Below are positions 9,391 to 59,717 of a stretch of DNA of 64,000 nt, piece after piece. A program made the position numbers and the translations under genes. How positions within the stretch are numbered: position 1 is the stretch's first letter; each line of letters opens with the position of its first letter. This DNA is from Brevibacillus choshinensis. GTDB taxonomy: Bacteria; Bacillota; Bacilli; Brevibacillales; Brevibacillaceae. The DNA is taken from assembly GCF_016811915.1 (NCBI RefSeq), contig NZ_CP069127.1, positions 5,850,501 through 5,914,500 of the forward strand, written 5' to 3'. Below the pieces are notes generated by a model. That model made no database searches and was not told where the DNA came from. It saw nothing but the letters and a program-made list of their open reading frames with translations.

Positions 9391-9711
9391 AATTTTCCTT
9401 GCGTCTGTTCCAGCTTTTGAAGTATCCTAATCAACAAGAGTTGATCCTTTTAAAAAATTTGAAAGACGGGAGTGTTGGTTCATGGTGATTTCTGTAGTTA
9501 TCTTAGCTTAGGTAGGCCTCTGATAAGGGGCACTGCCTCTTAAAGACCACCTATAGCAAGAAACTGCAGGATGCCAGAACCGCTTCCGTCTTTTTCCCGA
9601 TTGGTTGTTGTGGGCACCAGTTTATGTGAGGAACATACCGCCCCAGGTATGGAGCCCTTTTTGGGTAACCTTAGACTGGCTTTATTTGCCCGACACCTGA
9701 TATCGATCGTC
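9391..9711 (+). ncRNA. Candidate structured RNA downstream of selD
   Basis: About 320 bp without a convincing ORF. A possible promoter (TTGCGT, 18 bp, TATCCT near 9425) lies at its start. Potential helices include a closing stem GTGTTGG (9472-9478)/CCGACAC (9690-9696), allowing one G-U pair, a TAGGT/ACCTA stem around 9511-9553, a TATGT/ACATA hairpin near 9625, and a 3' hairpin CCAG...CTGG (9643-9679). It ends at a strong intrinsic terminator. Length and closed outer stem would suit a free-standing small RNA such as a 6S-like RNA, but I do not recognise a conserved family motif. Confidence 0.4.
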
Positions 9712-38431: not shown

Positions 38432-40201
38432 ATGATGGGGACGGGAAGATTTGAAGGCTATACGATGAAGTCATTCAGAAGGGATTGCGTGTCCGGGTTC
38501 ATCGTGGCTGTCATTGCTCTACCGCTCGGAATGGCGTTTGCCATCGCTTCCGGAGTCAAGCCGGAGTACGGCATTTACACCACCATTGTTGCGGGAATAT
38601 TGATTTCCCTGTTCGGAGGGTCACGATTTCAGATTGGGGGGCCAACCGGTGCGTTTATCCCCATTTTGTTCGCGATCGTCATGCAATACGGCTACGAAAA
38701 TCTGCTGATTGCCGGCTTCATGGCAGGAGCCATGCTCGTCATCATGGGGCTTCTTCGTCTTGGTGCCTTAATCAAGTACATCCCCCGTCCAGTAACGGTC
38801 GGATTTACGGCGGGGATCGCTGTCATCATTTTCAGCGGGCAGATTGTTCACTTTCTAGGTCTTCGGGACATCCAGAAGCATGAGGACTTCCTATCCAATA
38901 TGAAGGAGATCGCAATCCACTTTCCGACTCTCAACCTCTACAGCATCATTACGGCGTGCATTTGCCTTGCTCTTATCTTGCTGACGCCGCGGATATTCCC
39001 AAAAGTACCCGGCTCGCTCATCGGCTTGATTCTATCGAGTCTGGTAGCTGTGCTATTATTTGAAGAGAAGGTTGCCACCATTGGTTCAACATTCGGAGCT
39101 ATTCCCAGTACACTGCCCTCTTTTCGCTTTCCCGAAATCACGTTTGAGCGCATACAGGCATTGCTGAATCCCGCGCTGGTGATTGCCTTGCTGGGCGCTG
39201 TCGAGTCCTTGCTGTCCGCAGTCGTTGCTGACGGCATGTCCAGCCAGCGGCACAACAGCAATCGGGAATTGATCGGCCAAGGCATCGCCAATATGATCAC
39301 ACCCCTGTTCGGCGGCATTCCTGCAACGGGGGCGATTGCCCGTACCGCGACCAACATCAGGAGTGGAGCTGCTTCTCCTCTGTCTGGCGTGATTCACGGG
39401 GTCATCGTCTTGTTGATTCTGGTCTTGTTTGCACCGTATGCCTCACACATTCCGTTGGCGAGCATGGCTCCCATCTTGATGCTGGTGGCATGGAACATGA
39501 GTGAGCGCAAGGAATTCCTCCATATTCTCAAAACCAGAACCAGCGATTCGGTAGTGCTATTGATTACGTTTCTCCTGACCGTTTTTACCGATTTGACTCT
39601 CGCTGTCGAGGTGGGGCTGATTCTGGCCATTCTCCTGTTCGTCAAACGGATGAGCGGATCGCTGAAGATCACCAAAGCTCTGCCAGATCCGGACAGCAAA
39701 AACCAGAAGATCATGCCTCATATGGTTTCGGAGGTACACGATTGCCCGCAAATCAGCATCTTCACCATCGAGGGACCCCTTTTCTTCGGAGATGCGAGCC
39801 TGCTTGAAAAGTCCATTCTCGATGCTGCTGCATCCTCAACAGGCATCCTGCTTCTGCGGATGGGAAAGGTTCCTTTTCTGGACACGACAGGGGAAGCCAG
39901 CTTGGCGAGCATTGTCAGGCACTTCCGCTCTCGGGGTGGAACGGTGCTTTTCTCAGAGCTGCAGGATCAACCCAGAGCTCTCCTGCAGCGCACCGGGCTT
40001 TATGAAGTGATTGGGAAAGCGAATGATTTTGCGCACACGGGAGAAGCCATCGACTGCGCCTTGACCAGGCTGAATCAAGCAAAATGCCTCGGCTGCCAGC
40101 ATTTTGCGTTTCGCGAGTGTACCGCTCTGTCCGACCATGGCAACTCAGCGCAGGCGTTAGCCGTCCAGAAGCAAGAATCGCCTGCCCATGCCCATACTTG
40201 A
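38432..40201 (+). CDS. SulP family inorganic anion transporter
   Basis: The 589-residue membrane protein has the SulP core (CVSGFIVAVIALPLGMAFAI; GGSRFQIGGPTGAFIPILFA; GGIPATGAIARTATNIRSGA). About 10-12 hydrophobic segments are followed by a cytosolic STAS domain (ISIFTIEGPLFFGDASLLEK, then KVPFLDTTGEASLASIV). A C-terminal tail carries CLGCQHFAFREC. SulP proteins carry sulfate, bicarbonate or other anions with H+ or Na+. The cysteine tail could sense metal or redox state. It is followed after 19 bp by an ArsR-type regulator gene, and the two are probably co-transcribed. Confidence 0.9.
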   Translation: MMGTGRFEGYTMKSFRRDCVSGFIVAVIALPLGMAFAIASGVKPEYGIYTTIVAGILISLFGGSRFQIGGPTGAFIPILFAIVMQYGYENLLIAGFMAGAMLVIMGLLRLGALIKYIPRPVTVGFTAGIAVIIFSGQIVHFLGLRDIQKHEDFLSNMKEIAIHFPTLNLYSIITACICLALILLTPRIFPKVPGSLIGLILSSLVAVLLFEEKVATIGSTFGAIPSTLPSFRFPEITFERIQALLNPALVIALLGAVESLLSAVVADGMSSQRHNSNRELIGQGIANMITPLFGGIPATGAIARTATNIRSGAASPLSGVIHGVIVLLILVLFAPYASHIPLASMAPILMLVAWNMSERKEFLHILKTRTSDSVVLLITFLLTVFTDLTLAVEVGLILAILLFVKRMSGSLKITKALPDPDSKNQKIMPHMVSEVHDCPQISIFTIEGPLFFGDASLLEKSILDAAASSTGILLLRMGKVPFLDTTGEASLASIVRHFRSRGGTVLFSELQDQPRALLQRTGLYEVIGKANDFAHTGEAIDCALTRLNQAKCLGCQHFAFRECTALSDHGNSAQALAVQKQESPAHAHT

Positions 40202-40220
40202 AAGATGGAGGATTCTTTCA

Positions 40221-40547
40221 TTGAATTTAGAACTGCAACAGTTTAAAGCTGATTTTTTCAAAGCGTTGGGACATCCGTTGCGCATCCGCATTTTGGAGCT
40301 GTTATCTGAGGGCGACAAGAATGTCAACGAGCTCCAAAGCTTGATCGGAAGCGAAGGATCTGCCGTCTCCCAACAGCTCGCGGTCCTGCGCAGCAAGAAT
40401 ATCGTGTACGGAACGAAAGACGGCAACAAGGTGACCTATTCGCTTCGAGACCCGATGATCATTGAGCTCTTATCGGTTGCCCGTCAAATCTTTAACAACC
40501 ACCTGATTGATGCCATTTCGATGCTGGACCGATTCAACGAAGAATAA
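40221..40547 (+). CDS. ArsR family winged-helix repressor
   Basis: The 108-residue protein starts at TTG 40221, preceded by GGAGGA with 8-base spacing. The ArsR/SmtB fold reads FFKALGHPLRIRILELLSEG, the recognition helix NVNELQSLIGSEGSAVSQQL, and the wing KNIVYGTKDGNKVTYSLRD. The alpha3 metal-binding ELCVCDL motif is absent and no cysteine is visible, so it does not look like a canonical metal sensor. Co-transcription with the SulP gene suggests it controls that transporter in response to another signal. A bidirectional terminator follows. Confidence 0.88.
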   Translation: MNLELQQFKADFFKALGHPLRIRILELLSEGDKNVNELQSLIGSEGSAVSQQLAVLRSKNIVYGTKDGNKVTYSLRDPMIIELLSVARQIFNNHLIDAISMLDRFNEE

Positions 40548-40591: not shown

Positions 40592-41311
40592 TTACACGTT
40601 AATAACCGCATCCAGCGCAATCAACGCTTCCGCTTCGATCGCTTTTGCCAATGTTTCCGTATGTGGATTGTAATCCTGCAGCAGGTCTGCATCAGCAAAG
40701 CCGTCGATTGCCAAAATGGAGCCTGCTTTCATGCCGCGCAAGGCTGCGATGACGAACAGCGCAGAGTTCTCCATCTCTACTGCCAGTACACCCGCTTTTT
40801 GATAGAGCTTGTGCGGGAATTCCAGAACGCCGCTGTAGAATACGTCGAGCGTCAGCGTGATGCCTTCTGCGATGTGGAGGCTGGAATCACTCGACTTCGC
40901 CGCCTCGGCCAATGCTTCTGCCACTTGGCGGTTGGCGATCGCAGGAAATCCCGGAGGCACGAGCTGACTGGTCAGCCCGTCTTGGCGAACGGCTGCCGAA
41001 CTGATGACGAGACTGCCCGGTTGAATCTCCTGTTGATAGGAACCCGCTGTTCCCACGCGGATGATGACTTCCACGCCGCCCTTGGCCAATTCCTCGAAGC
41101 AGACGGCTGCTCCCGGCGATCCCACACCATGGCTGACAATCGCCACCTCGACGCCCTTCCATTCTCCCGCATAGCTGTGGTATTCCCGGTTTTCCGCCAG
41201 CGGCCGGTGGTTGTCCAGCTTGGATGCAATCAAAGCTGCACGCTTCGGATCGCCGCACACAATGACGCGCTTTGGCAGCATATCTGGATCGATCTTTAGA
41301 TTCGTCAGCAT
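40592..41311 (-). CDS. Nucleoside phosphorylase (PNP/UDP family)
   Basis: The 239-residue protein has VIVCGDPKRAALIASKL, VSHGVGSPGAAVCFEELAKG, VRVGTAGSYQQEI and the family signature VLAVEMENSALFVIAALRG. It phosphorolyses a nucleoside to base and (deoxy)ribose-1-phosphate. The hexameric DeoD/Udp-type motifs do not settle purine versus uridine versus methylthioadenosine specificity. Start ATG 41311 is coupled to the preceding gene (TGA-G-ATG). It is the last gene of an operon headed by a SAM riboswitch and a BMP-type nucleoside importer, so it probably cleaves the imported nucleoside. Confidence 0.85.
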   Translation of the reverse strand: MLTNLKIDPDMLPKRVIVCGDPKRAALIASKLDNHRPLAENREYHSYAGEWKGVEVAIVSHGVGSPGAAVCFEELAKGGVEVIIRVGTAGSYQQEIQPGSLVISSAAVRQDGLTSQLVPPGFPAIANRQVAEALAEAAKSSDSSLHIAEGITLTLDVFYSGVLEFPHKLYQKAGVLAVEMENSALFVIAALRGMKAGSILAIDGFADADLLQDYNPHTETLAKAIEAEALIALDAVINV

Positions 41312-41312
41312 C

Positions 41313-41975
41313 TCAATCAAACTCCTTTTTCTCCCACTCGTCTTCCGGAATCGGCAAAGCTTCGCCGGAAAATCGCTCTTCCCGGAAAGGATCGCCATCT
41401 AGATGAAAGCCGTTTTGCTCCCAGAAGCCAGGCTTATTTTCATCCATAAATTCAAAGCCTCGCAGCCATTTCACACTCTTCCAAAAATACAGATGCGGAA
41501 CCACCAGGCGCAGCGGCCACCCATGCTTGTCTGTCAGCTTTTCGCCGTCGAAGGTATGTGCCAGAATCACATCATCGCGATCCAGATCGCTCAAGGCGAT
41601 ATTGGACGTATAATCATGATCGCCGTGCAGCATGACATACGAGCTTTGTGGTGTTACCCCGATCGCTTTCATGAAGTCGCGGAAACGAACGCCCGTAAAC
41701 GCGTTGTCAAAACGGGACCAGCGCGTCACGCAGTGAATGTCGCACGTGACCGTCGACTGAGGCAATGCCATGAATTGCTCATACGTCAGGGTCACTTCCC
41801 GGTCTACCTGTCCGAATACCCGAAACGTCCACTCATTCATGTCGTAGACAGGCACTTCTCCTTCATGCAAAATCGGAAACCGCTCCGTGAGCACTTGCCC
41901 AGGCGGCAGGCGCTTGGCCAATGCAGGATCGACCGCGGGCACCTTCATTCGTTTGATACGTTCTGCCTTGTCCAT
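41313..41975 (-). CDS. Sulfite oxidase-like molybdopterin oxidoreductase
   Basis: The 220-residue cytosolic protein (no signal peptide) has the SUOX-fold molybdopterin-binding segments FMALPQSTVTCDIHCVTRWS, with Cys ligand candidates in CDIHC, and HGDHDYTSNIALSDLDRDDV, then HGWPLRLVVPHLYFWKSVKW. The family includes sulfite oxidases and the methionine-sulfoxide reductase MsrP; this short form is uncharacterised. It is translationally coupled to the following phosphorylase gene (TGA-G-ATG) and follows the transporter genes, so it belongs to the SAM-riboswitch operon. A sulfur-compound substrate would fit, but this is inference. Confidence 0.85.
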   Translation of the reverse strand: MDKAERIKRMKVPAVDPALAKRLPPGQVLTERFPILHEGEVPVYDMNEWTFRVFGQVDREVTLTYEQFMALPQSTVTCDIHCVTRWSRFDNAFTGVRFRDFMKAIGVTPQSSYVMLHGDHDYTSNIALSDLDRDDVILAHTFDGEKLTDKHGWPLRLVVPHLYFWKSVKWLRGFEFMDENKPGFWEQNGFHLDGDPFREERFSGEALPIPEDEWEKKEFD

Positions 41976-42011
41976 CTCGCATTACTCCTTTGTTTTCCTA
42001 TCTCGTTGTCA

Positions 42012-42923
42012 TTAGCGGGAGCTCTGCTGGCTGCCCCCTGCCTTGCTTTTCTCTTTGACAAAAAACATCGCTACGATCGTGAGCAAGTACGGCAGCATGG
42101 AAGTAAACTGAGTCGGCAGGGACAGGCCCTGCAGGCGGATACTGAGGGCATCCATCAAGCCGAACAGGAAGCTCGACGCCAGGATGCCGAGCGGGTGGGA
42201 TTGCCCCATCATCATCGCAACCAGAGCGATAAACCCGCGTCCCGCCGTCATTCCCTCCGAAAACATCGTGACTTGACCCAACGACAGCTGAGCGCCTGCC
42301 ACGCCGCACAAAACGCCGCATGCCGTGATTGCCAGCACTTGCAGCCCTGTTACCTTGAGGCCGAGACTCCGTGCCGCCACCGGATTGAGACCGACCGCAA
42401 GTACGCGGAAACCGGTGACGGTCCGGTAAAAGAACAGGTAGAGCATAATAGCTGCGAGAAAAGCGAAGTACACCAGCGGGGAATGCCCGGACAATATGTC
42501 TCCCAGCACGGGAATCTCTTTGATCACTGGAATATCCAGCTTCGGAAGGCCCGCCATCTCTTTGTCGTAAAAGGCGCCCTTCACACCGAAGATAGCCCGC
42601 AGCGCGAACGTCGTCAGCCCCAGCGCCAAAAAGTTAATCGCCACACCGACCACGATTTCATTTGCCTTAAGGCCGATCGTCATATAAGCAAATAACAGAG
42701 AAAACAGCACGCAGACCAAAGCCGCAAACAGGATGGCGAGAAACAGGCTCCCGGTAAAGTGATTGCCCACGATAGCGGAAAAGGCCCCTACCAGCACCAA
42801 CCCTTCCAACCCGACATTGAAAATACCGACACGTGCACACAGCGCTCCACCCAATGCCGCCAAAAGGATCGGCGTGACCATCCGGATGGTCGAGCTAATG
42901 AGGGACCAATCAAGCAGCTCCAT
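42012..42923 (-). CDS. BMP-type nucleoside ABC transporter permease 2
   Basis: The 303-residue membrane protein belongs to the branched-chain/nucleoside permease family. It shows SSTIRMVTPILLAALGGALC at the N-terminus, GIFNVGLEGLVLVGAF and GVAGAQLSLGQVTMFSEGMT. It resembles NupQ of the B. subtilis guanosine/nucleoside importer. The start is ATG 42923 (AAGGGGGAG upstream), overlapping the end of permease 1 by 14 bp. It pairs with permease 1 in the membrane. Confidence 0.88.
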   Translation of the reverse strand: MELLDWSLISSTIRMVTPILLAALGGALCARVGIFNVGLEGLVLVGAFSAIVGNHFTGSLFLAILFAALVCVLFSLLFAYMTIGLKANEIVVGVAINFLALGLTTFALRAIFGVKGAFYDKEMAGLPKLDIPVIKEIPVLGDILSGHSPLVYFAFLAAIMLYLFFYRTVTGFRVLAVGLNPVAARSLGLKVTGLQVLAITACGVLCGVAGAQLSLGQVTMFSEGMTAGRGFIALVAMMMGQSHPLGILASSFLFGLMDALSIRLQGLSLPTQFTSMLPYLLTIVAMFFVKEKSKAGGSQQSSR

Positions 42924-43980
42924 GCGATTCTCCCCCTTTTGCCTTGCGTTTTTTCCACCAGTCATAGCTGAACTTGGCGGAAATGAATAGAATCAGCACC
43001 GCCTGGATGACGCTGGCCAGCTCCAGCGGAACCTCCGTATTTCGTTCCACACCCATTGCCCCTGTCTGGAACGCTGCCAGAAGAATCGAGGTGAAAATGA
43101 TCCCGATCGGGTTGGAATTAGCGAGCAGCGTCGCCATCATGCCCGTCCAGGCAAAGTTGGGGACAGTCAGCGCGCCATCCACAAAACGGTAATGCGCTCC
43201 CAGCACTTCTACTGTTCCGGCCAATCCAGCCAAGCCACCACTGGCAAACATCCCGGTCAGCATCACCTTGATCTGGTTAATCCCGCCGTACCTTGCAAAC
43301 AGCGGATTTTGGCCGAGCATTTTAACCTCATAGCCGAATGGCGTAAACCGAATCACCCAGAACAACAGCAGAGCAGCTGCAATCGCAAAGAAAAAGCCCG
43401 CATGCACGCTCATTCCGGAAAACAGCTTGGGCAGCCATGCACTTTTTTCCAGCATTACGGTTTGGGCGAGAGCTGCCGAACCCGTTCTGTCTTGAAACGG
43501 ATCACTCACCAGATAGCTGGCGAACAGCACCGCAATATAGTTGAACAGGAGTGTGGAAATGAGCAGGGGAATGCGGAACTTTGCCTCCATGTACCCTGCC
43601 AGCAGGGACCACAAACCGCCAACTGTGATTCCCACGAGGATTCCGGCCAGCATTTTCACGATTCCCGGCGCTGGCAAATAAATCGCTACGAGTGTCGCAC
43701 TGATTGCGCCCAGCACCATTTGCCCCTCAGCTCCCAAGTTAAAAACCCCTGCACGGAAGGCCAGGGCAAGCCCCAGCGCAATCAGCATGATCGGCGTCGC
43801 ACGTGCCAGCGTGGAAGTGAAGAAATAAAAGCTGCCAAAGGCACCCTTCCACATTTCCTGGTACGTTCCAATGACCGATTCGCCGACTGCCGCAATCACT
43901 ACCGCTCCCGTCAGCAGCCCGATCATGACTGCGAGGACCGGCTGAACCAACGACTTACACAGCTCTCTGATCGCTGCCAT
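42910..43980 (-). CDS. BMP-type nucleoside ABC transporter permease 1
   Basis: The 356-residue permease has about eight to nine transmembrane segments and family motifs GLALAFRAGVFNLGAEGQMV and ASGGLAGLAGTVEVLGAHYR. It resembles NupP. ATG 43980 has GGAGG eight bases upstream and overlaps the end of the ATPase gene by 26 bp, so translation is tightly coupled. It carries the nucleoside through the membrane together with permease 2. Confidence 0.88.
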   Translation of the reverse strand: MAAIRELCKSLVQPVLAVMIGLLTGAVVIAAVGESVIGTYQEMWKGAFGSFYFFTSTLARATPIMLIALGLALAFRAGVFNLGAEGQMVLGAISATLVAIYLPAPGIVKMLAGILVGITVGGLWSLLAGYMEAKFRIPLLISTLLFNYIAVLFASYLVSDPFQDRTGSAALAQTVMLEKSAWLPKLFSGMSVHAGFFFAIAAALLLFWVIRFTPFGYEVKMLGQNPLFARYGGINQIKVMLTGMFASGGLAGLAGTVEVLGAHYRFVDGALTVPNFAWTGMMATLLANSNPIGIIFTSILLAAFQTGAMGVERNTEVPLELASVIQAVLILFISAKFSYDWWKKRKAKGGESHGAA

Positions 43981-45484
43981 GAACATTTCCTCCTGCCATC
44001 AACACGCTGATTTTTTCTTCTGTTGCTTCCGATCGTGCCAGCTCACCAGCGATTCGCCCTTTGTACATGACCAAAACCCTGTCTGACAAGGCGAGAATTT
44101 CCGACAACTCAGACGAGACGAGCAAGATCCCATCCCCGTTATTTCGCTTTTCAATGAGTGCCTGATGAATGTGTTCCATCGCTCCGATATCCACGCCGCG
44201 AGTCGGTTCCGCGGCAATCAGCAGGGGTGTTTCCTGCCCCAGCTCTCTTGCGACGATCAGCTTTTGCAAATTTCCGCCTGAAAGGTTGCCTGCCAGCTCT
44301 TGCAGCTGCCTGGAGCCTGTCTTGATCGCAAAGCGGTCCACCCAGCCACGAACGACCTGACGGAACGAGTCACGCAGGATGACGCCTCGACGATAAAATT
44401 CCGGCTTCCGCTGATAGCCCATCAACGCGTTTTCCTCGACGCTTTCCAGCTTCGCGGTCCCCCATAGATAGCGGTCTTCCGGAATATGCGCCAGCCCTGC
44501 CTGACGGATCGCCTCCACCGACTTGTTGGTGACATCGGTACCGTCCAGATGGATTTTGCCTTCCTGAATGGGTCGCAAGCCGCTGATGGCTTGCAGCAGC
44601 TCAGACTGGCCGTTTCCAGATACACCTGCGATCCCCACGATTTCCCCATGGTGAATGGAGAAGCTGACATGATCCAGCAGCGTCTGTTTCTCTCGCATCG
44701 TCACCCGGTCCACGTGCAGCAGCCTTTTGCCTTCCAATGGGACCCGCTGGCTCAGCTCCTCCAGCTCCCTGCCCACCATCAGCCTCGCCAGATCGTCGAC
44801 ATTGGTCTCGCTTTGGGAAACGGTCCCGGTCACACGTCCTCCGCGCAGCACGGTGATCCGATCCGCTACTTCCATGACCTCCTGCAGCTTGTGCGTAATC
44901 AGGATGACGCTTTTCCCGCTCGCTGCAAGATTCCGGATCGTCTGCAGCAAATCTTTGACTTCCAAAGGAGTAAGCACAGCGGTCGGTTCGTCCAGCACGA
45001 TAATTTCCGCCCCTTGGTAGAGCACCTTCAAAATCTCTACACGCTGCTGCTCGCCGACCGAGCAAGCGGACACCTGTGTCAGGGGATTGATGGGGATTCG
45101 GTACTCCTCGCTCAAGGCACGCACCTTTTCTACCGCTTCCTTGCGCCGGAAGAATCCCGCCTGCTTGGGTTCGTACCCAATCACAATGTTTTCCGCTACC
45201 GTAAAATCTCCAAAAAGCATGAAGTGTTGATGCACCATGCCAATGCCGTTCCGAATCGCGTCGTTCGGCCCTCGGAATGCGACCGGCTTGCCGTTCAGCA
45301 GAATCTCGCCTTCTGTCGGCTGCTCCATCCCGTACAGCATGCGCATCAGTGTCGTTTTTCCCGCTCCGTTCTCCCCGACGATGGCATGGACCTCGCCTGC
45401 TTCCAGGGTGAAGGACACTTGATCGTTGGCCGTAAATTCTCCGTACTTCTTGGTCATCTGCTTCATTTCCAAGCGATGCGCCAT
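43955..45484 (-). CDS. BMP-type nucleoside ABC transporter ATPase (double cassette)
   Basis: The 509-residue protein has two ABC domains. The first has GENGAGKTTLMRMLYGMEQP, CSVGEQQRVEIL and IIVLDEPTAVLTPLE. The second has a degenerate Walker A (GVSGNGQSELLQAI), signature NLSGGNLQKLIVAREL and LLIAAEPTRGVDIGA. This layout is that of NupO/RbsA-type ATPases. It powers the importer made with the two downstream permeases and the upstream BMP lipoprotein, from which it is separated by 96 bp. Confidence 0.9.
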   Translation of the reverse strand: MAHRLEMKQMTKKYGEFTANDQVSFTLEAGEVHAIVGENGAGKTTLMRMLYGMEQPTEGEILLNGKPVAFRGPNDAIRNGIGMVHQHFMLFGDFTVAENIVIGYEPKQAGFFRRKEAVEKVRALSEEYRIPINPLTQVSACSVGEQQRVEILKVLYQGAEIIVLDEPTAVLTPLEVKDLLQTIRNLAASGKSVILITHKLQEVMEVADRITVLRGGRVTGTVSQSETNVDDLARLMVGRELEELSQRVPLEGKRLLHVDRVTMREKQTLLDHVSFSIHHGEIVGIAGVSGNGQSELLQAISGLRPIQEGKIHLDGTDVTNKSVEAIRQAGLAHIPEDRYLWGTAKLESVEENALMGYQRKPEFYRRGVILRDSFRQVVRGWVDRFAIKTGSRQLQELAGNLSGGNLQKLIVARELGQETPLLIAAEPTRGVDIGAMEHIHQALIEKRNNGDGILLVSSELSEILALSDRVLVMYKGRIAGELARSEATEEKISVLMAGGNVHGSDQRAV

Positions 45485-45580
45485 TCCCGCTCCTCCTTCT
45501 TTTCACGTTCCTCCCGAATACACAAGCGACCGACTACACAGCTGTAGTCGGTCACCTAAATGCACGAGTGCTGCCAGCTA

Positions 45581-46645
45581 TTAGAACGAGTCAGGAACTT
45601 TACGTGTGCCTGCTACGATCTCGTCATTGATAGCCTTCACTTTATCGATCACTTCTTGGCCGATGAACGGGTTCAGCGGCGTTTTGCTCTCGTGGGTCAC
45701 ATAGGTTACACCCACGCCTTTTTCTTTCAATCCGTAGGTCACTACACCTGGCTTCAGGTTGCCTTCGACAAAGGACTTCACGGTTTCGTACGCTGCCGCA
45801 TCGGTGCCTTTCAGCTGAGAGAGCACGATGTGAGCGGGATCGATGGATGTACGGTCTACGTCTTGACCAGAAGTGTAGAAGCCTTTTTCCTTCGCTGCCT
45901 CAAACACGCCCAGATCGCCAACCGCTGCCGCACCGTTAATGATGTCGGCGCCTTTGGATGCTTGGAGCAAAGCCAGCTCTTTCGCTTTTGCCGGGTCAGA
46001 GAAGCTGCCCACGTAGTTCACGAGGAACTCCGCGTTCGGATTTGTCGCCTTCATCCCCTCTTGGAATCCACCTGTCCATTTTTTCAGGAGAGGAATATCC
46101 ATCGCTACGACCATGCCGACTTTGTTGGTTTTGGTAGCCAGTCCAGCAGCCGCCCCCATCAGATAGGCAGCTTCCTGCTCACGGAAGGTAACGCTGCGGA
46201 CGTTTGGCAAATCAACTACGGTATCGATAATCGCAAAATTGCGATCCGGATTCTCTGCCGCTACTTTTTTCAGCGCATCTTCTGCTTCAAACGAAGAAGT
46301 GATGATCAGATCATAATTTTCTGCCACTGCGACGCGAAGATTTTCCTCGATCGCTCCATGGTCCGTAGACTCGATGCTTTTTACTTCTGCGCCAAACTCC
46401 TGGCCGGCTTTCTTGGCACCTTCATCCATTTGTTGAAAGAACGGGTTGACACCGATTTTCTCCGGCAGGATCAGGGCAATGCGTTTTTTCGCCGCTCCCT
46501 CTTGTCCTGCTGCTTGTCCTTCTGCTTTTTCAGCAGGAGCGCTGCCTCCTGCCGGAGAGCTGCCTCCTGTCGGAGAGCTGCCTCCCGCCGAGCATCCAGC
46601 TGCCAGTACGGCGAATGTGGTCAAAGCCAACAATAGTTTCTTCAT
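45581..46645 (-). CDS. BMP family nucleoside-binding lipoprotein
   Basis: The 354-residue protein has a lipoprotein signal (LLALTTFAVLAAGCSAGG, Cys18) and a Ser/Gly/Pro linker with a short repeat (GGSSPTGGSSPAGGSAPA). The PnrA/BMP fold follows (RIALILPEKIGVNPFFQQMD; VTFREQEAAYLMGAAAGLAT; VGMVVAMDIPLLKKWTGGFQ). BMP proteins bind purine nucleosides in many bacteria. It is the first gene of a six-gene operon whose leader carries a SAM-I riboswitch, so the physiological ligand may be a methionine-cycle nucleoside such as 5'-methylthioadenosine rather than guanosine. Confidence 0.9.
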   Translation of the reverse strand: MKKLLLALTTFAVLAAGCSAGGSSPTGGSSPAGGSAPAEKAEGQAAGQEGAAKKRIALILPEKIGVNPFFQQMDEGAKKAGQEFGAEVKSIESTDHGAIEENLRVAVAENYDLIITSSFEAEDALKKVAAENPDRNFAIIDTVVDLPNVRSVTFREQEAAYLMGAAAGLATKTNKVGMVVAMDIPLLKKWTGGFQEGMKATNPNAEFLVNYVGSFSDPAKAKELALLQASKGADIINGAAAVGDLGVFEAAKEKGFYTSGQDVDRTSIDPAHIVLSQLKGTDAAAYETVKSFVEGNLKPGVVTYGLKEKGVGVTYVTHESKTPLNPFIGQEVIDKVKAINDEIVAGTRKVPDSF

Positions 46646-46815
46646 GGTGTACCCCTCTCTATCTAGAGCCTCTAAATTCGTTTTTATCTATTCACATATG
46701 TAATGTACGGTTTTTATACCAAAAAATCAATATAAATTACGTACATTTCACAAAAAAATACAGTTATCGTTCGTTTTTGCTGTCGCATTTTCTCTTTTTC
46801 ACTTGCGCTAGACAA
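46646..46815 (-). promoter_or_regulatory. Leader between SAM riboswitch and BMP gene, with PurBox-like sites
   Basis: It contains an inverted repeat AATGTACG (46702-46709)/CGTACATT (46740-46747) flanking an AT-rich TATAAA. A PurBox-like AAAAACGAACGAT (minus strand, 46766-46778) and a weaker AAAAACGAATTTA nearer the gene are also present. A second, internal promoter under another regulator is possible. No ORF is seen. Confidence 0.4.
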
Positions 46816-46974
46816 ATAAAAAACTCTTCCCTGAGGAAGAGTTTACGTCCGGAACGGTCCTCTTCCTCATCTTCCAAGACATTCTCCCTGTCTTGTAGGA
46901 ATTGGCACCAGTCTGTACATGTACAGTGGTTGCCGGGCTTCATCGGGCCAGTCCCTCCGCCGCTCTAGATAAGG
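46816..46974 (-). promoter_or_regulatory. SAM-I riboswitch (S-box) with terminator
   Basis: Minus strand. The aptamer spans 46974-46865, with P1 strands CCTTATCT and AGATGAGG. The conserved core GCGGAGGGACTGGCCCGATG, AAGCCCGGCAACC and GGTGCCAATTCC are present. The expression platform has GAGGAAGAG, which can pair with CTCTTCCTC as an antiterminator, competing with the terminator AACTCTTCC-ctca-GGGAAGAGTT plus T-run (46816-46843). SAM binding should therefore switch the downstream operon off. Confidence 0.95.
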
Positions 46975-47050
46975 TAGTATTTTGATAGGATTTTAATTAA
47001 ATCAATTCTAGCAGAACGAAACAAAAATGCAATTATTATTTCTATTCCCT

Positions 47051-48529
47051 CTAATCCTTTGCATGAAACGTCTGCTGGAGGCGATGGGACAACGCGTTCA
47101 GCTCTCCCAGCTCCTCTGTGATTTCCCGCACCTTTTGATGCTGATTTTCCGCAGTAGCGAACAGCTCCTCCAGATTGGCTACCGACTCCTCCGTAACGGC
47201 TGTAATGGTAGACATCTCAGCCGCTACTTCCCCTGAGCGCATTTTTACTCTGTCCATGCTGGAGCGAACATGCTCTGCCGCAGCCAAGAAGGTAACCATC
47301 CCTGCGCGTACGGCTTCGATCGATGCGACGGTTTTGACTGCCAGCTCTTGCCCTTTGGCGACAGATCCCTCTCCCGTGCTGATTTGTTGGACAGCATTTT
47401 CGCTTTCCTGATGGAGGGATTTTAAGATCTCGGTGATTTCCTGCGTCGCAGTGGCACTTTGCTCAGCCAGCTTGCGCACTTCGTCAGCCACGACTGCAAA
47501 GCCTCGTCCATGCTCACCAGCCCGCGCCGATTCGATGGCTGCATTCAGCGCCAGCAGATTGGTCTGTGTGGCAATCTGGTTGATCGCCCCGACAATTTCC
47601 TCTACGCGATTGGCTTGGCGATTGAGCTGGTGGATTGTCGAAGCTGCAATCGTGACGGCCTGAACGATTTGTTCCATCTGCTGGGATAGCTCGTTCATCA
47701 TCCCGATGCTCTCCGCCAGACGCAAATTGCTCTGGTCGGATTCGATCTTCATCGCGTTCGCCTGAGTAGTCACCTCGACAATTTCCTGATCGATCGACTG
47801 CACTTCCTCCTCGATCTTTACGGTGGAGTTTGCCTGAGACTCCATGCCAGTGGCGACTTCCTTGAAGGCGATCATCATGTCGTCCGTGTTGCGCTTGGTT
47901 CCCTCGGCATGTTCATGCACATGTTCAGTTGTACGGTCGAGCTGCTCGGTCATCACTTTGATGTGTCCCAGCATCTCAGCCAGTCGCTGCTCTTTTTCCT
48001 CGGCTTCTTTTCTTGCCGTGTTTGCTTTTCTAAGCGAGGCTTGTCCTGCCAGACAGAGGTACGTCACCGCCGCCATCATCATCAGGATGGCTACGATTCT
48101 CACCTCGAGATTGACTGCGTTGAAATTCCCGGTAAATATCTGGTAGGTTCCGGTGTAATAGCCCACTAACGTGACAATGATCTCGGTGATTCCCGCAAAA
48201 ACGACCAGCTTCCAGTCTAAGTAGGCTGCCAAAAATCCCATGATGATAAATGCCAGAAACGCTATTTCCTGGTACGAGCTAAAATGATCGAAAGAGATGG
48301 CATAAAACATGAGTCCAATTGCAACCAGATAACGAATAACGGCGCTGTCTTTGCGGATGAAATAATACGGCGATACGATCAAGGTCACCAGCAACCCTAA
48401 CGAACTGACGAACCAGAAGTTCACATTTTCCTGGAATGCAATCAGCCCGGCCATCCATAAATGATTCCATAGAACAAAAATCATGAAGCCTTCCTTGTTG
48501 GTCAAGGTACCCTTCACCAGCTGAATCAT
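47051..48529 (-). CDS. Methyl-accepting chemotaxis protein
   Basis: The 492-residue protein has about six N-terminal transmembrane segments (residues 14-165) with little extracellular sequence. A long coiled-coil signalling domain follows with the conserved hairpin tip ([20 protein letters not shown], then [20 protein letters not shown]). Instead of a large external sensor domain the receptor has a polytopic membrane module, so it may sense membrane or energy state or hydrophobic ligands. It signals to CheA/CheW. ATG 48529 has AAGGAGGGATACAGG upstream. Confidence 0.9.
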
Positions 48530-50023: not shown

Positions 50024-51457
50024 TTACTGATTCCGTTTTGTGATATTGCGAGCCATCCAGACCCCCGCTGCTCCCGCTTGCGCCAGACCGCGAGTAATAC
50101 CCGCCCCGTCCCCGCCGCAGAACAGGCCTTTGATTTCCGTCTCGAATTCTTCGGTCAGCTTTGGACGCGCGGAGTAGAATTTGGCCTCGACGCCGTAGAA
50201 CAGCGTGTGCTCCGATGCAATACCCGGTGTCACCTTATCCAGCGCTTCTACCATTTCCACCAAGCTTTTCATCGTATTGTACGGCAGCACCAGTCCAAGG
50301 TCACCCGGCACAGCTTCCTTCAGCGTCGGTTCCAGGAAGCCTTCGCGAATGCGGGATTCGGTGGAGCGGCGGCCACGCATGATATCGCCGAACTTTTGCA
50401 CAATCACGCCGCCATTGGACAGGTCATTTGCCCGCTTGCAGATTTCCCGTGCGTATTCGTTTGGCTTGTCAAATGGTTCCGTAAAGGTATGAGAAACGAG
50501 AAGCGCAAAGTTGGTGTTGGCCGAGCCGAGAGCCGGGTCTTTGTACGAGTGACCGTTTGCCGCCATGACCCCGCTGTGGTTTTCCACGACGACGTGTCCC
50601 GAAGGATTGCTGCAGAACGTACGCACCCGCGTTCCTACGGATGTGTTGAAAATGAACTTTCCTTCGTACAGATGCTCATTGATTTCACGCATCACGACGT
50701 CTGAGGTCTCTACGCGCACGCCTACGTCCACCTGATTGTTGTACATTTTCAAACGACGCTTTTTCAGGATGTTCGTCAGCCAAGCCGAGCCATCCCTTCC
50801 CGGCCCGATGACGACAAAATCACTTTCGTACTCTTCCCCGTTTTTCAGCGTCACACCTTTGACCTCGTGACCGCCTTCTCCTTTGACGGTAATGATGTCT
50901 TCTACCTCTGTCTTGAACATCATATCGATACGGCCTTTGAGGTGCTCAAAGATCGACTGCAGAATTTGCAGGTTTTGCTCCGTTCCCAAGTGACGCACCT
51001 GTGCGCGCAGCAGCTTCAACCCCGCTGCGTAGCCACGCTGTTCGATATTTTTAATGGTCTCTGTCGTCGGGTCGGTAATCACTTCTGTCGCCCCGTGCTC
51101 CAGATTGATGGCGTCCACATATTTGATCAGATTGAGCACAGTGGAAGGACTCAGATAATCCGTCATCCATCCGCCAAACTCCGTCGTAATGTTAAATTTC
51201 CCGTCACTGTACGCACCGGCACCGCCGAAGCCGCTCGTGATCGAACAGGCTGGCAGGCACCCCGCGAAATCCTTTTTCCCGGCAGGCGGCGGACAGAGCT
51301 TGATTTTCTCTTCCAAAATCGGGCAACGTCTGCTGTAGATGTCGTGCCCCTTGTCGATTAACAGCACCTTGGCATCCGGCCATGTTCGCGTCAGCTCATA
51401 GCATGTAAAAATTCCTGCTGGACCTGCGCCTACCACGATCACATCATACTTCTTCAT
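50024..51457 (-). CDS. FAD-dependent oxidoreductase (COG2509-like)
   Basis: The 477-residue protein has an N-terminal dinucleotide-binding motif (VIVVGAGPAGIFTCYELTRT), a Cys-containing stretch (CPPPAGKKDFAGCLPACSIT), GGAGAYSDGKFNITTEFGGW, and a C-terminal FAD motif (GLFCGGDGAGITRGLAQAGA). It matches the NAD(P)/FAD-dependent dehydrogenases of COG2509, whose reactions are unknown. Its leader carries a purine riboswitch, a sigma-A promoter and, further upstream, PurBoxes, so it is tied to purine levels. The start at 51457 has GAGGGGGAAACGAAC upstream. The enzyme's substrate is not known. Confidence 0.85.
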   Translation of the reverse strand: MKKYDVIVVGAGPAGIFTCYELTRTWPDAKVLLIDKGHDIYSRRCPILEEKIKLCPPPAGKKDFAGCLPACSITSGFGGAGAYSDGKFNITTEFGGWMTDYLSPSTVLNLIKYVDAINLEHGATEVITDPTTETIKNIEQRGYAAGLKLLRAQVRHLGTEQNLQILQSIFEHLKGRIDMMFKTEVEDIITVKGEGGHEVKGVTLKNGEEYESDFVVIGPGRDGSAWLTNILKKRRLKMYNNQVDVGVRVETSDVVMREINEHLYEGKFIFNTSVGTRVRTFCSNPSGHVVVENHSGVMAANGHSYKDPALGSANTNFALLVSHTFTEPFDKPNEYAREICKRANDLSNGGVIVQKFGDIMRGRRSTESRIREGFLEPTLKEAVPGDLGLVLPYNTMKSLVEMVEALDKVTPGIASEHTLFYGVEAKFYSARPKLTEEFETEIKGLFCGGDGAGITRGLAQAGAAGVWMARNITKRNQ

Positions 51458-51565: not shown

Positions 51566-51675
51566 AAAAAATCCCGGCCGACGAATAGGGTATGTCTGAC
51601 ACAACCCCATTCGTAGCCGGGAATTTACGGTTCCCTGTAGAGACCCTCAAACCATATTTCTGAGGATATACGAAT
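51566..51675 (-). promoter_or_regulatory. Purine riboswitch with overlapping terminator
   Basis: Minus strand. P1 is ATTCGTA (51669-51675)/TACGAAT (51609-51615). P2 is CCTCA/TGAGG with loop ...AATATGGTT. J2/3 is TCTCTA. P3 is AGGGAA/TTCCCG with loop CCGTAAA. J3/1 is GGC, with C at the guanine-recognition position and G replacing the usual A just before it. The terminator (ATCCCGGCCGACGAATAGGG paired with CCCATTCGTAGCCGGGA, then TTTTTT) uses the P3 and P1 3' strands, so ligand binding should block termination. Confidence 0.92.
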
Positions 51676-51722
51676 TGAAAGAGATATTCATCAAGCCAGT
51701 TTTGTGACAATCAACAATATGT

Positions 51723-58239: not shown

Positions 58240-59583
58240 TTAGGCGACCTGCTGATTGGCTGCTGCCTGCTTTTTCTCTTTGCTGTCTGGAATGATCAGG
58301 TTGAGGATCACCGTGGCCAGCGCCCCCACCGTGATACCCGAGGACAGGATGTAGTTTGCGAAATCCGGTACGCCATTCAACGCTTCTTTCGGCAGCACCG
58401 TTACCGCAATCGTGCACAGAATAGGCAATCCGATGACCATCATGTTGCGGTCATCGATCGAGATGTGCTGAATCACCTTGATGCCGTTCGCAACAATCGC
58501 GACGCATACGATCCCAAAAATCCCGTTGATCACAGGTTCAGGAATGCAAGTGATCGCAGTCGACAGCTTCGGCACGAGGCCGAGAGCGACCAGAATGATG
58601 CCCCCTGCCATAATCGCCATGCGGCTGCCTACCCCCGTAACAGCGATCAGGCCTGCATTGGAGGAATAACCCGTCGTCGGCGTACCGCCAAACAGAGCCC
58701 CGATCAAGCACCCCAGCCCTTCACCGACCGCAGCACGATTCAAGCGCTTCTCAGTCAGCTCGCTATCCGTCACAGTCGAGACAACAAACCAGGTACCTGT
58801 GGTTTCAATCATGATGATCATGTAGACAAAGAGCATCGTCAGTACGGCGCTGAAGTCAAATACAGGTGCACCGTACGGGAAAAACTTCGGCAGCGACAGC
58901 CAGCTCGCTTGTCCTACCGGGCTGAAATCCACCGTTCCAAAGAATGCTGCAGTGATCGTACCCACTGCGATGGCGATCAATACAGACACCAGGCGGAAAA
59001 ACGTTCCCGCTACTCTGGCTCTTTTACCTAGCAGCATGCATGTTACCAGAACGAACGCAGATACAGCCGCAATCAGGACGTTGGTCCAAATGTCTCCCGG
59101 AGAGTGGTAGATATTTCCCATGCCAATCGGCATCAGTGCGATTCCGACGATGATAATGACCGTTCCCCCTACCAGGGGCGGAATGAACCTCTGCACCGCT
59201 TTGGCAAACCACTTCAACGGATAGCCCATGAGCGCCATCAACAATGCACCCGGGATCAAGCTCCCGATCATGGCACTTAGTCCAAGCTTGCTGCCGATAG
59301 CAGCCAAAGCGCCGATCGGCACGTATGAGGGCCCCTGCACGACAGGCAACCGCAGCCCAAAGCCTGTCTGGATCAACGTACCGATCCCTGTCGCCAAAAA
59401 GCACATCTGAATGAAAAAGGACGTACCCGATGCGTCCATCGTCAGCAAGCCAGCAATAATGATAGGAGCAATATACAAGTCCATGGCCAGCACGTGTTGC
59501 ATTCCGAGCAAAAAGGCTTTGCTGATACTGATTTTCTCATCGACGCCCACCACAAGCCCCGCGCTATCGCGACGTTGTTCCAC
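58240..59583 (-). CDS. NCS2 nucleobase permease (xanthine/purine type)
   Basis: The 447-residue protein has 12-14 predicted membrane segments and the NCS2 signature (GMQHVLAMDLYIAPIIIAGL; LPVVQGPSYVPIGALAAIGS; GGTPTTGYSSNAGLIAVTGV, then GSR). The motif after GTP fits the xanthine/urate branch better than uracil permeases. It imports purine bases by cation symport. Its promoter (TTGCAA, 18 bp, TATAAT on minus) carries a PurBox just downstream. It is divergent from a Rieske oxygenase gene. Confidence 0.87.
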   Translation of the reverse strand: MEQRRDSAGLVVGVDEKISISKAFLLGMQHVLAMDLYIAPIIIAGLLTMDASGTSFFIQMCFLATGIGTLIQTGFGLRLPVVQGPSYVPIGALAAIGSKLGLSAMIGSLIPGALLMALMGYPLKWFAKAVQRFIPPLVGGTVIIIVGIALMPIGMGNIYHSPGDIWTNVLIAAVSAFVLVTCMLLGKRARVAGTFFRLVSVLIAIAVGTITAAFFGTVDFSPVGQASWLSLPKFFPYGAPVFDFSAVLTMLFVYMIIMIETTGTWFVVSTVTDSELTEKRLNRAAVGEGLGCLIGALFGGTPTTGYSSNAGLIAVTGVGSRMAIMAGGIILVALGLVPKLSTAITCIPEPVINGIFGIVCVAIVANGIKVIQHISIDDRNMMVIGLPILCTIAVTVLPKEALNGVPDFANYILSSGITVGALATVILNLIIPDSKEKKQAAANQQVA

Positions 59584-59617
59584 TTTCGAACAGCCTCCCC
59601 AATTACGTTCAATAGTA

Positions 59618-59717
59618 AATAACGAACATTATAACGCAGATTATAAATTATTATTCTTGTTTTTTGCAACAAAAATTAACTAATATTCACATGAAATATA
59701 GTATCGTTCGTGTTTTT
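59618..59717. promoter_or_regulatory. Purine-permease promoter with PurBoxes
   Basis: Minus-strand promoter TTGCAA-N18-TATAAT. AATAACGAACATT (59618-59630) fits PurBox except one base. A second, inverted CGAAC core (GTATCGTTCGTGTTTT, 59701-59716) lies about 75 bp away, just upstream of the -35 of the divergent oxygenase gene. Confidence 0.6.

Follow-up and report, generated by a model that had tools for sequence, protein, structure and literature searches.

NupNOPQ of Bacillus subtilis is a nucleoside ATP-binding cassette (ABC) importer of the BMP/PnrA family, to which TmpC/PnrA, BmpA and BmpD also belong. The NP-I family of nucleoside phosphorylases includes PfPNP, a hexameric Plasmodium-type enzyme that cleaves methylthioinosine as well, and the 5'-methylthioadenosine (MTA) phosphorylase (MTAP) of Sulfolobus. 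According to the available part of PMC10986504, Escherichia coli with the dihydroxyacetone phosphate (DHAP) shunt grows on external MTA and 5'-deoxyadenosine. The S-box, or S-adenosylmethionine-I (SAM-I) riboswitch, controls the methionine regulon of Bacillales by an aptamer with terminator/antiterminator logic. MsrP/YedY and the sulfite oxidases have in common a molybdenum-cofactor (Mo-cofactor) domain fold with an invariant Cys. Here we describe a locus of Brevibacillus choshinensis in which parts of these known kinds occur in a new combination. It lies within a stretch of 64,000 nucleotides (contig NZ_CP069127.1, positions 5,850,501 to 5,914,500), which we call the window and to which unmarked positions refer; G and L numbers are our handles for genomes and loci. 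An operon of S-box, BMP importer and phosphorylase is undescribed in openly licensed papers, among the matches listed (titles and abstract starts).

In this study, we show that a SAM-I riboswitch with an intrinsic terminator precedes six minus-strand genes, namely four importer genes, a sulfite-oxidase-like gene (SorL) and a nucleoside phosphorylase gene (NP). The best-supported reading of the operon, to which we assign a probability of roughly 0.7, is import and phosphorolysis of MTA. The BMP-type ABC importer would take up MTA, and NP would split it with phosphate into adenine and 5-methylthioribose-1-phosphate, which would join the methionine salvage pathway of the host at MtnA. At low SAM the leader would be antiterminated and the operon on; at high SAM helix P1 would be stabilised, the terminator arm freed and transcription stopped. 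Purines probably act on the operon too, through a second promoter downstream of the terminator that has a PurR-like operator. The features are as follows, in the order of transcription.

47005-47032 (-): putative promoter P1, ahead of the S-box; TTGCAT (47032-47027), 16 nt, TAGAAT (47010-47005), with a TG extension
46864-46975 (-): SAM-I (S-box) riboswitch aptamer; RF00162, 89.8 bits
46833-46868 (-): predicted antiterminator, 46868-46860 paired with 46841-46833; sequence and folding
46821-46844 (-): intrinsic terminator stem-loop, then T-run; folding and terminator scan
46735-46778 (-): PurR-operator-like pair, AAAAACGAACGAT (46778-46766), 18 bp, AATGTACGTAATT (46747-46735); motif score and conservation
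46702-46730 (-): putative promoter P2, TTGATT (46730-46725), 17 nt, TACATT (46707-46702); conservation
45581-46645 (-): BMP/PnrA-family lipoprotein (BMP), substrate-binding protein of the importer; PF02608, 207.5 bits, and alignment to BmpA/BmpD
43955-45484 (-): double ATPase of the importer; PF00005, two stretches
42910-43986 (-): permease A (BPD_transp_2); PF02653
42012-42965 (-): permease B (BPD_transp_2); PF02653
41313-41975 (-): SorL, sulfite-oxidase-family Mo-cofactor domain protein (Oxidored_molyb) with an invariant Cys in DIHCVTRW; PF00174 and a 14-row alignment
40592-41311 (-): NP, nucleoside phosphorylase (PNP_UDP_1), proposed MTA (5'-deoxynucleoside) phosphorylase; PF01048, residues and gene contexts

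The listed reading frame of NP opens at 41398; the start is better placed at 41311, because conservation begins at that ATG, just past the SorL stop.

The leader and its two control regions

The preliminary description of this DNA had proposed a textbook S-box with terminator ahead of a minus-strand operon of BMP lipoprotein, double ATPase, two permeases, sulfite-oxidase-like enzyme and phosphorylase. Pfam bears out the gene layout, and the Rfam covariance search, which had been suggested there, bears out the leader: the aptamer matches RF00162 over its full length (model positions 1-108, E 4.5e-20), far above the gathering score of 44.4 bits. The terminator stem comprises 10 bp (46844-46821) and is the sole terminator-like match within 46600-47100 (shuffle mean 0.3). 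A 9-bp antiterminator overlaps both the 3' strand of aptamer helix P1 and the 5' arm of the terminator, and by sequence and folding the antiterminator and the terminator are mutually exclusive. In the folding prediction, an RNA ending before the 3' arm of the terminator adopts the antiterminator, and the whole leader adopts helix P1 and the terminator. The arms of both structures are largely kept across 12 aligned rows, the window being one of them. As far as folding tells, the layout is that of the usual S-box OFF switch, applied here to a nucleoside importer-phosphorylase operon that has in addition a second, PurR-like controlled start. A spermidine-responsive variant of the S-box is not favoured. 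According to the source, in the part available, that variant differs in J1/2 and the P3 loop. Judged by eye, the window agrees with SAM-I in both places apart from two P3-loop letters (CU for Aa) and so shows no sign of the variant, short of proof.

Both putative promoters were recognised by conservation across the aligned rows: the TAGAAT of promoter P1 is found in 9 of 12, and GTACATTA of promoter P2 likewise in 9 of 12. Promoter P2 (TTGATT-17-TACATT) follows the PurR-operator-like pair within the 170 bases that separate the terminator from BMP. PurR boxes were scored by their consensus with weights of our own (maximum 35). With 30.0 the pair, two inverted CGAA operators by this consensus, is the best of the window, and 0 of 200 spacer shuffles reach it. 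The only other pair in the window scoring at least 28 (59618-59662) lies 34 bases upstream of a Xan_ur_permease gene (58240-59662 region, minus strand), and 141 kb of other host sequence hold no pair reaching 29.5. As a control, the region upstream of host purE gave a pair whose boxes lie 19 bp apart and whose score, 29.5, none of 100 shuffles attained. The host encodes PurR itself (TIGR01743, 386.1 bits, cut-off 258.7).

In a comparison of 36 loci, 12 of the 13 from the same genus have the pair, 126-140 nt upstream of BMP; shuffles equalled it in 0 of 60 trials for 11 loci and in 1 of 60 for L070. Similar pairs stand upstream in L182, L189 and L214, and L178 has a site scoring 27 at 270 nt (0 of 60 shuffles); BMP starts were estimated for L182, L189 and some others. 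No pair was found upstream in L198, Gracilibacillus or Paenibacillus-type loci.

Since a conserved PurR-operator-like pair and promoter-like sequence sit between terminator and BMP, control of the operon is probably dual, by methionine and purine, with PurR as the presumed ligand of the predicted operator. The earlier statement that the operon is shut down when SAM is plentiful probably describes only half of the control. The preliminary description had also named a promoter inside 46646-46815 that accounts for all transcription as a finding that would speak against it. Conserved promoter-like P2 with its PurR-like operator was found there; the MTA reading stands, because P2 looks purine-controlled, and two regulators would make sense for MTA, a source of methionine sulfur as well as of adenine.

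Conservation of the S-box and the six genes

A BMP orthologue (E below 1e-130) occurs in 31 of 39 genomes of the family. The linkage of S-box and BMP, for which the preliminary description had proposed a comparison among relatives, was recovered by Rfam in 28 of the 30 family loci tested (window included) and in three Bacillaceae operons (L182, L189 and L198, from Bacillus sp. FJAT-27251 and two Mesobacillus species). The two family misses are L052, where the contig starts 175 bases before the gene, and L062 of genome G032. Gene order from BMP through ATPase, both permeases and SorL to NP is identical in 19 of 20 fetched family loci. The genome with the 31st orthologue (G035) also lacks SorL and NP. 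In G013, which has no close BMP match, importer and SorL are missing at the locus, and the S-box with its terminator stands directly ahead of NP, 92 nt separating the end of the aptamer match from the NP start; by eye this leader keeps the terminator and shows no PurR-like pair before NP.

Matches to NP (E<=1e-30) were found in 60 of 398 genomes of the class, family included, 50 of them at 52-100% identity and 10 at 34-41%. Outside the family, 17 of 20 fetched NP loci hold all six genes. Named-genome loci were taken as the best 80 of 550 confirmed, out of at least 550 matches, a set overlapping the 20 family and 20 other loci. Of these 80, 70 carry all six genes, and five carry NP and none of the probed neighbours. 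In the remaining five, NP is accompanied by MtnA and GntR, and four of these five have an aldolase and a CNT transporter as well. An S-box ancestral to all copies of the operon is unsupported: it is present in two NP subclades and in none of the tested Paenibacillus/Cohnella loci.

Beyond the operon on the NP side, ArsR and SulP genes (38432-40547) adjoin it in 5 of 20 family loci and 0 of 20 other loci and were left out of the system for that reason. On the other side, upstream of the S-box, lies an MCPsignal chemotaxis-receptor-like gene (47051-48529, minus strand). Of 14 loci from the same genus, 13 have it in this place, L072 being cut by the contig start, and so has G013. In Gracilibacillus, a divergent pair of S-boxes lies some 3 kb downstream from the NP gene (L176 11699-12175, L208 11663-12112) and belongs to other genes.

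Substrate of the importer and phosphorylase

The preliminary description had suggested import and phosphorolysis of a methionine-cycle nucleoside, probably MTA. S-box linkage, 5'-pocket residues of NP and MtnA neighbours of its relatives all argue for this proposal, and the substrate is still deduced from them. NP belongs to the NP-I superfamily, with Plasmodium purine nucleoside phosphorylases (PNPs) as closest solved relatives by sequence; in the structural alignment it is about 37% identical to PfPNP and 29% identical to the MTAP of Sulfolobus. The NP clade, supported at 100/99 in a 33-row tree, was examined in 122 rows (112 distinct sequences, some records being duplicated), with PfPNP positions matched by hand. 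The position of Asp206, which we take to be the catalytic residue for purines, is Asp in 122 of 122 rows. In PfPNP, the excerpted text of PMC3885546 states, His7 of the neighbouring subunit contacts the nucleoside 5'-hydroxyl, and Val66, Val73 and Met183 line the 5'-methylthio pocket. At the His7 position the clade has Ile in 90, Asn in 31 and Thr in 1 row, and all 5 outgroup rows have His. All 122 rows keep Val66, and 118 of them keep Val73, where the outgroup has Met/Ile; the Met183 position is kept here as well. The 5' pocket of the window NP thus reads N4, V63, V70, that is, the valine lining with Asn in place of the 5'-hydroxyl-binding His.

Relatives of NP adjoin MtnA, as in the DHAP shunt and the MtnP-MtnA-Ald2 pathways. 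This is so in five named genomes, four of which also have a class II aldolase. Six MtnA-linked rows (Paenibacillus anaericanus, P. maysiensis, Lysinibacillus contaminans, Enterococcus rivorum, a Pseudogracilibacillus metagenome-assembled genome and G193) cluster at 83/96 inside the NP clade in the full tree, for which the tool warns of long branches. MtnA scores above cut-off in G193, Enterococcus and Lysinibacillus, and the two Paenibacillus proteins are 93 and 90% identical to that of G193. The Pseudogracilibacillus isomerase, at only 36% identity, is placed just in the wider IF-2B family, and a deaminase of its cluster is related to deaminases of MTA, S-adenosylhomocysteine (SAH) and 5'-deoxyadenosine, under every cut-off. 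In E. rivorum (L151), a BMP-type importer 29-42% identical to that of the window follows the NP/MtnA cluster. Genes resembling carboxynorspermidine synthase and decarboxylase lie just upstream of the NP-GntR-MtnA-CNT-aldolase cluster in L128 (and L148). Unlike the DHAP shunt, the present operon has neither aldolase nor MtnA, and its product would enter the oxygen-dependent methionine salvage pathway. For the latter, NCBIfam matches above cut-off identify MtnK, MtnA, MtnW, MtnX, MtnB and MtnN in the host, and the gene after MtnB belongs by Pfam to the ARD family, that of MtnD.

The importer has the four parts of the BMP/PnrA systems, its PF02608 binding protein adjoining an ATPase and two permeases. 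By hand matching to BmpA and BmpD, with an inferred numbering offset, the nucleoside-binding residues are kept (an aromatic sandwich of two Phe, and Asp/Asp/Lys at the ribose; PMC13325309, available part), but base-edge positions differ, with BmpD Asp19 replaced by Pro61 and Asn28 by Phe70. S-box control and the attachment of SorL and NP further set the system apart from its BMP/PnrA relatives.

Several observations weigh against the MTA reading. NP has Phe at the Tyr160 position of PfPNP, a residue shared by the whole clade (122 of 122 rows) and by the outgroup (5 of 5); in PfPNP the Y160F change lowers methylthioinosine efficiency about 14-fold and halves that for inosine, and His7 mutants lose efficiency overall (PMC3885546, excerpted text). 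Tyr160, for its part, need not be a defining residue of MTAPs. The best NCBIfam model for NP is uridine phosphorylase (UP), at 159.7 bits against a cut-off of 280.3; we did not adopt this identity, because the score falls well short of the cut-off and every clade row has the purine Asp. Foldseek places PNPs and UPs above MTAP for the NP model (mean predicted local distance difference test score, pLDDT, 88.4), and the model fits PNP, UP and MTAP alike, so structure was rejected as a discriminator. The host already encodes MtnN and MtnK. S-boxes were found neither in G032 (Rfam) nor in G035 (pattern search), nor by Rfam before L214, two Gracilibacillus operons and six Paenibacillus/Cohnella operons, nor by pattern search in 20 further loci, 17 of them with the operon. 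On the regulatory side, a strict consensus promoter scan misses promoters P1 and P2, the region upstream of host purR gave only a weak score of 27, matched by 5 of 100 shuffles, and the PurR-like pair was not found in same-genus L077 or in other genera of the family.

Ordinary scavenging of guanosine or adenosine by import and a PNP, expressed mainly from the PurR-like promoter with an S-box that is peripheral in some lineages, would agree with the presence of that operator, with the Phe at position 160, which ordinary PNPs share, and with the lack of S-boxes in the tested Paenibacillus/Cohnella loci; moreover, BMP proteins of known ligand bind common nucleosides, as reported in the available part of PMC13325309. 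We nevertheless consider it unlikely, given the loss of the 5'-hydroxyl-binding His throughout the clade, the MtnA linkage of NP relatives, and G013, where the S-box is kept directly before NP and the leader shows no PurR-like pair. The host, besides, already has two DeoD paralogues and another PNP_UDP_1 phosphorylase.

The MtnA and aldolase contexts suit 5'-deoxyadenosine, the radical-SAM by-product, as well as they suit MTA, and DHAP-shunt enzymes accept both alike (PMC10986504, available part). Import of 5'-deoxyadenosine or of a 5'-deoxynucleoside mix for carbon and adenine, not methionine, is in our view distinctly improbable all the same: 5'-deoxyadenosine holds no sulfur, so S-box control would be without obvious purpose, the host encodes methionine salvage enzymes, and the operon is missing the aldolase. 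Very improbable is uptake of a different compound of the methionine cycle (SAH, SAM, methylthioinosine or an S-oxide), with NP acting on its product. S-box linkage alone names no substrate, and SorL is placed between importer and NP; yet neither SAH hydrolase nor deaminase is among the six genes, and NP, with its catalytic Asp and its 5' pocket, suits a compact 5'-methylthio-purine nucleoside.

SorL, the host S-boxes and implications

SorL has the domain of sulfite oxidases and MsrP/YedY, its Cys being invariant in 14 rows. Unlike MsrP/YedY, SorL consists of the domain alone, is S-box linked and has neither a signal peptide (by eye) nor a membrane partner in the operon. The NCBIfam MsrP model gives 51.9 against 207 bits, and the structure model (mean pLDDT 79.3) only confirms the sulfite-oxidase/YedY fold. 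Relatives (E<=1e-50) occur in 111 of the 398 class genomes. In G122 and G221, which are of one genus and not among the 60 NP-match genomes, a lone SorL of 77% identity adjoins an ABC importer (Pfam) and cofactor genes that by eye resemble ModABC and Mo-cofactor synthesis; a SAM-I riboswitch (102.2 and 91.5 bits) precedes this SorL by about 75-85 nt. The G149 SorL has no S-box and an unrelated-looking ABC importer downstream, and three further relatives (L243-L245) have none of the probed neighbours.

The two lone S-box cases tie SorL itself to methionine. Our guess is a methionine-linked molybdoenzyme that would most likely reduce an S-oxide, be it free methionine sulfoxide or MTA sulfoxide, because this is the simplest chemistry serving a starving cell; MTA sulfoxide might be expected outside aerobic cells. 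Possible, though doubtful, is a scheme in which cytosolic SorL reduces imported oxidised MTA and NP then splits MTA, under dual SAM-riboswitch and PurR control, lone SorL reducing free methionine sulfoxide. Reduction of MTA sulfoxide is undescribed in openly licensed papers, among the matches listed (titles and abstract starts).

The host genome (6.17 Mb, single contig) holds 14 SAM-I matches, 13 besides that of the window. Read by eye, that is, from translations and not from searches, their targets are homoserine dehydrogenase (two in tandem), MetQ/MetN, MetN, a cystathionine-synthase-like gene, MetH, MetY, MetK, MtnK, MtnW, an aminotransferase, an oligopeptide permease and a ribose-type importer. 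The last (L024, G000:C1:5524000-5536000; S-box 9561-9679, minus strand) is one more S-box importer without explanation; an amidohydrolase gene follows it, together with genes that by eye resemble those of Rieske proteins, MetQ and sarcosine oxidase. In L032 (G000:C1:1074000-1086000) an S-box (G000:C1:1077864-1077968) precedes an oligopeptide-type ABC permease gene. The stretches surrounding the other two BMP proteins of the host hold no S-box. A purine riboswitch (RF00167, 72.1 bits, 51594-51693, minus strand) lies in the window upstream of a gene that by eye resembles FAD-dependent oxidoreductases (50024-51457; no NCBIfam model at 1e-30); G013 (L115) likewise has a purine riboswitch near a similar gene.

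If the MTA reading is true, MTA would be an external source of methionine and purine for these bacteria, not merely an internal waste product. The reading would also assign a substrate to an uncharacterised clade of BMP proteins and to a clade of phosphorylases present in many species of Paenibacillus, Brevibacillus and their relatives, and would offer a lead on the function of a common protein of sulfite-oxidase type. The operon offers a testable case of two regulators justified by one substrate.

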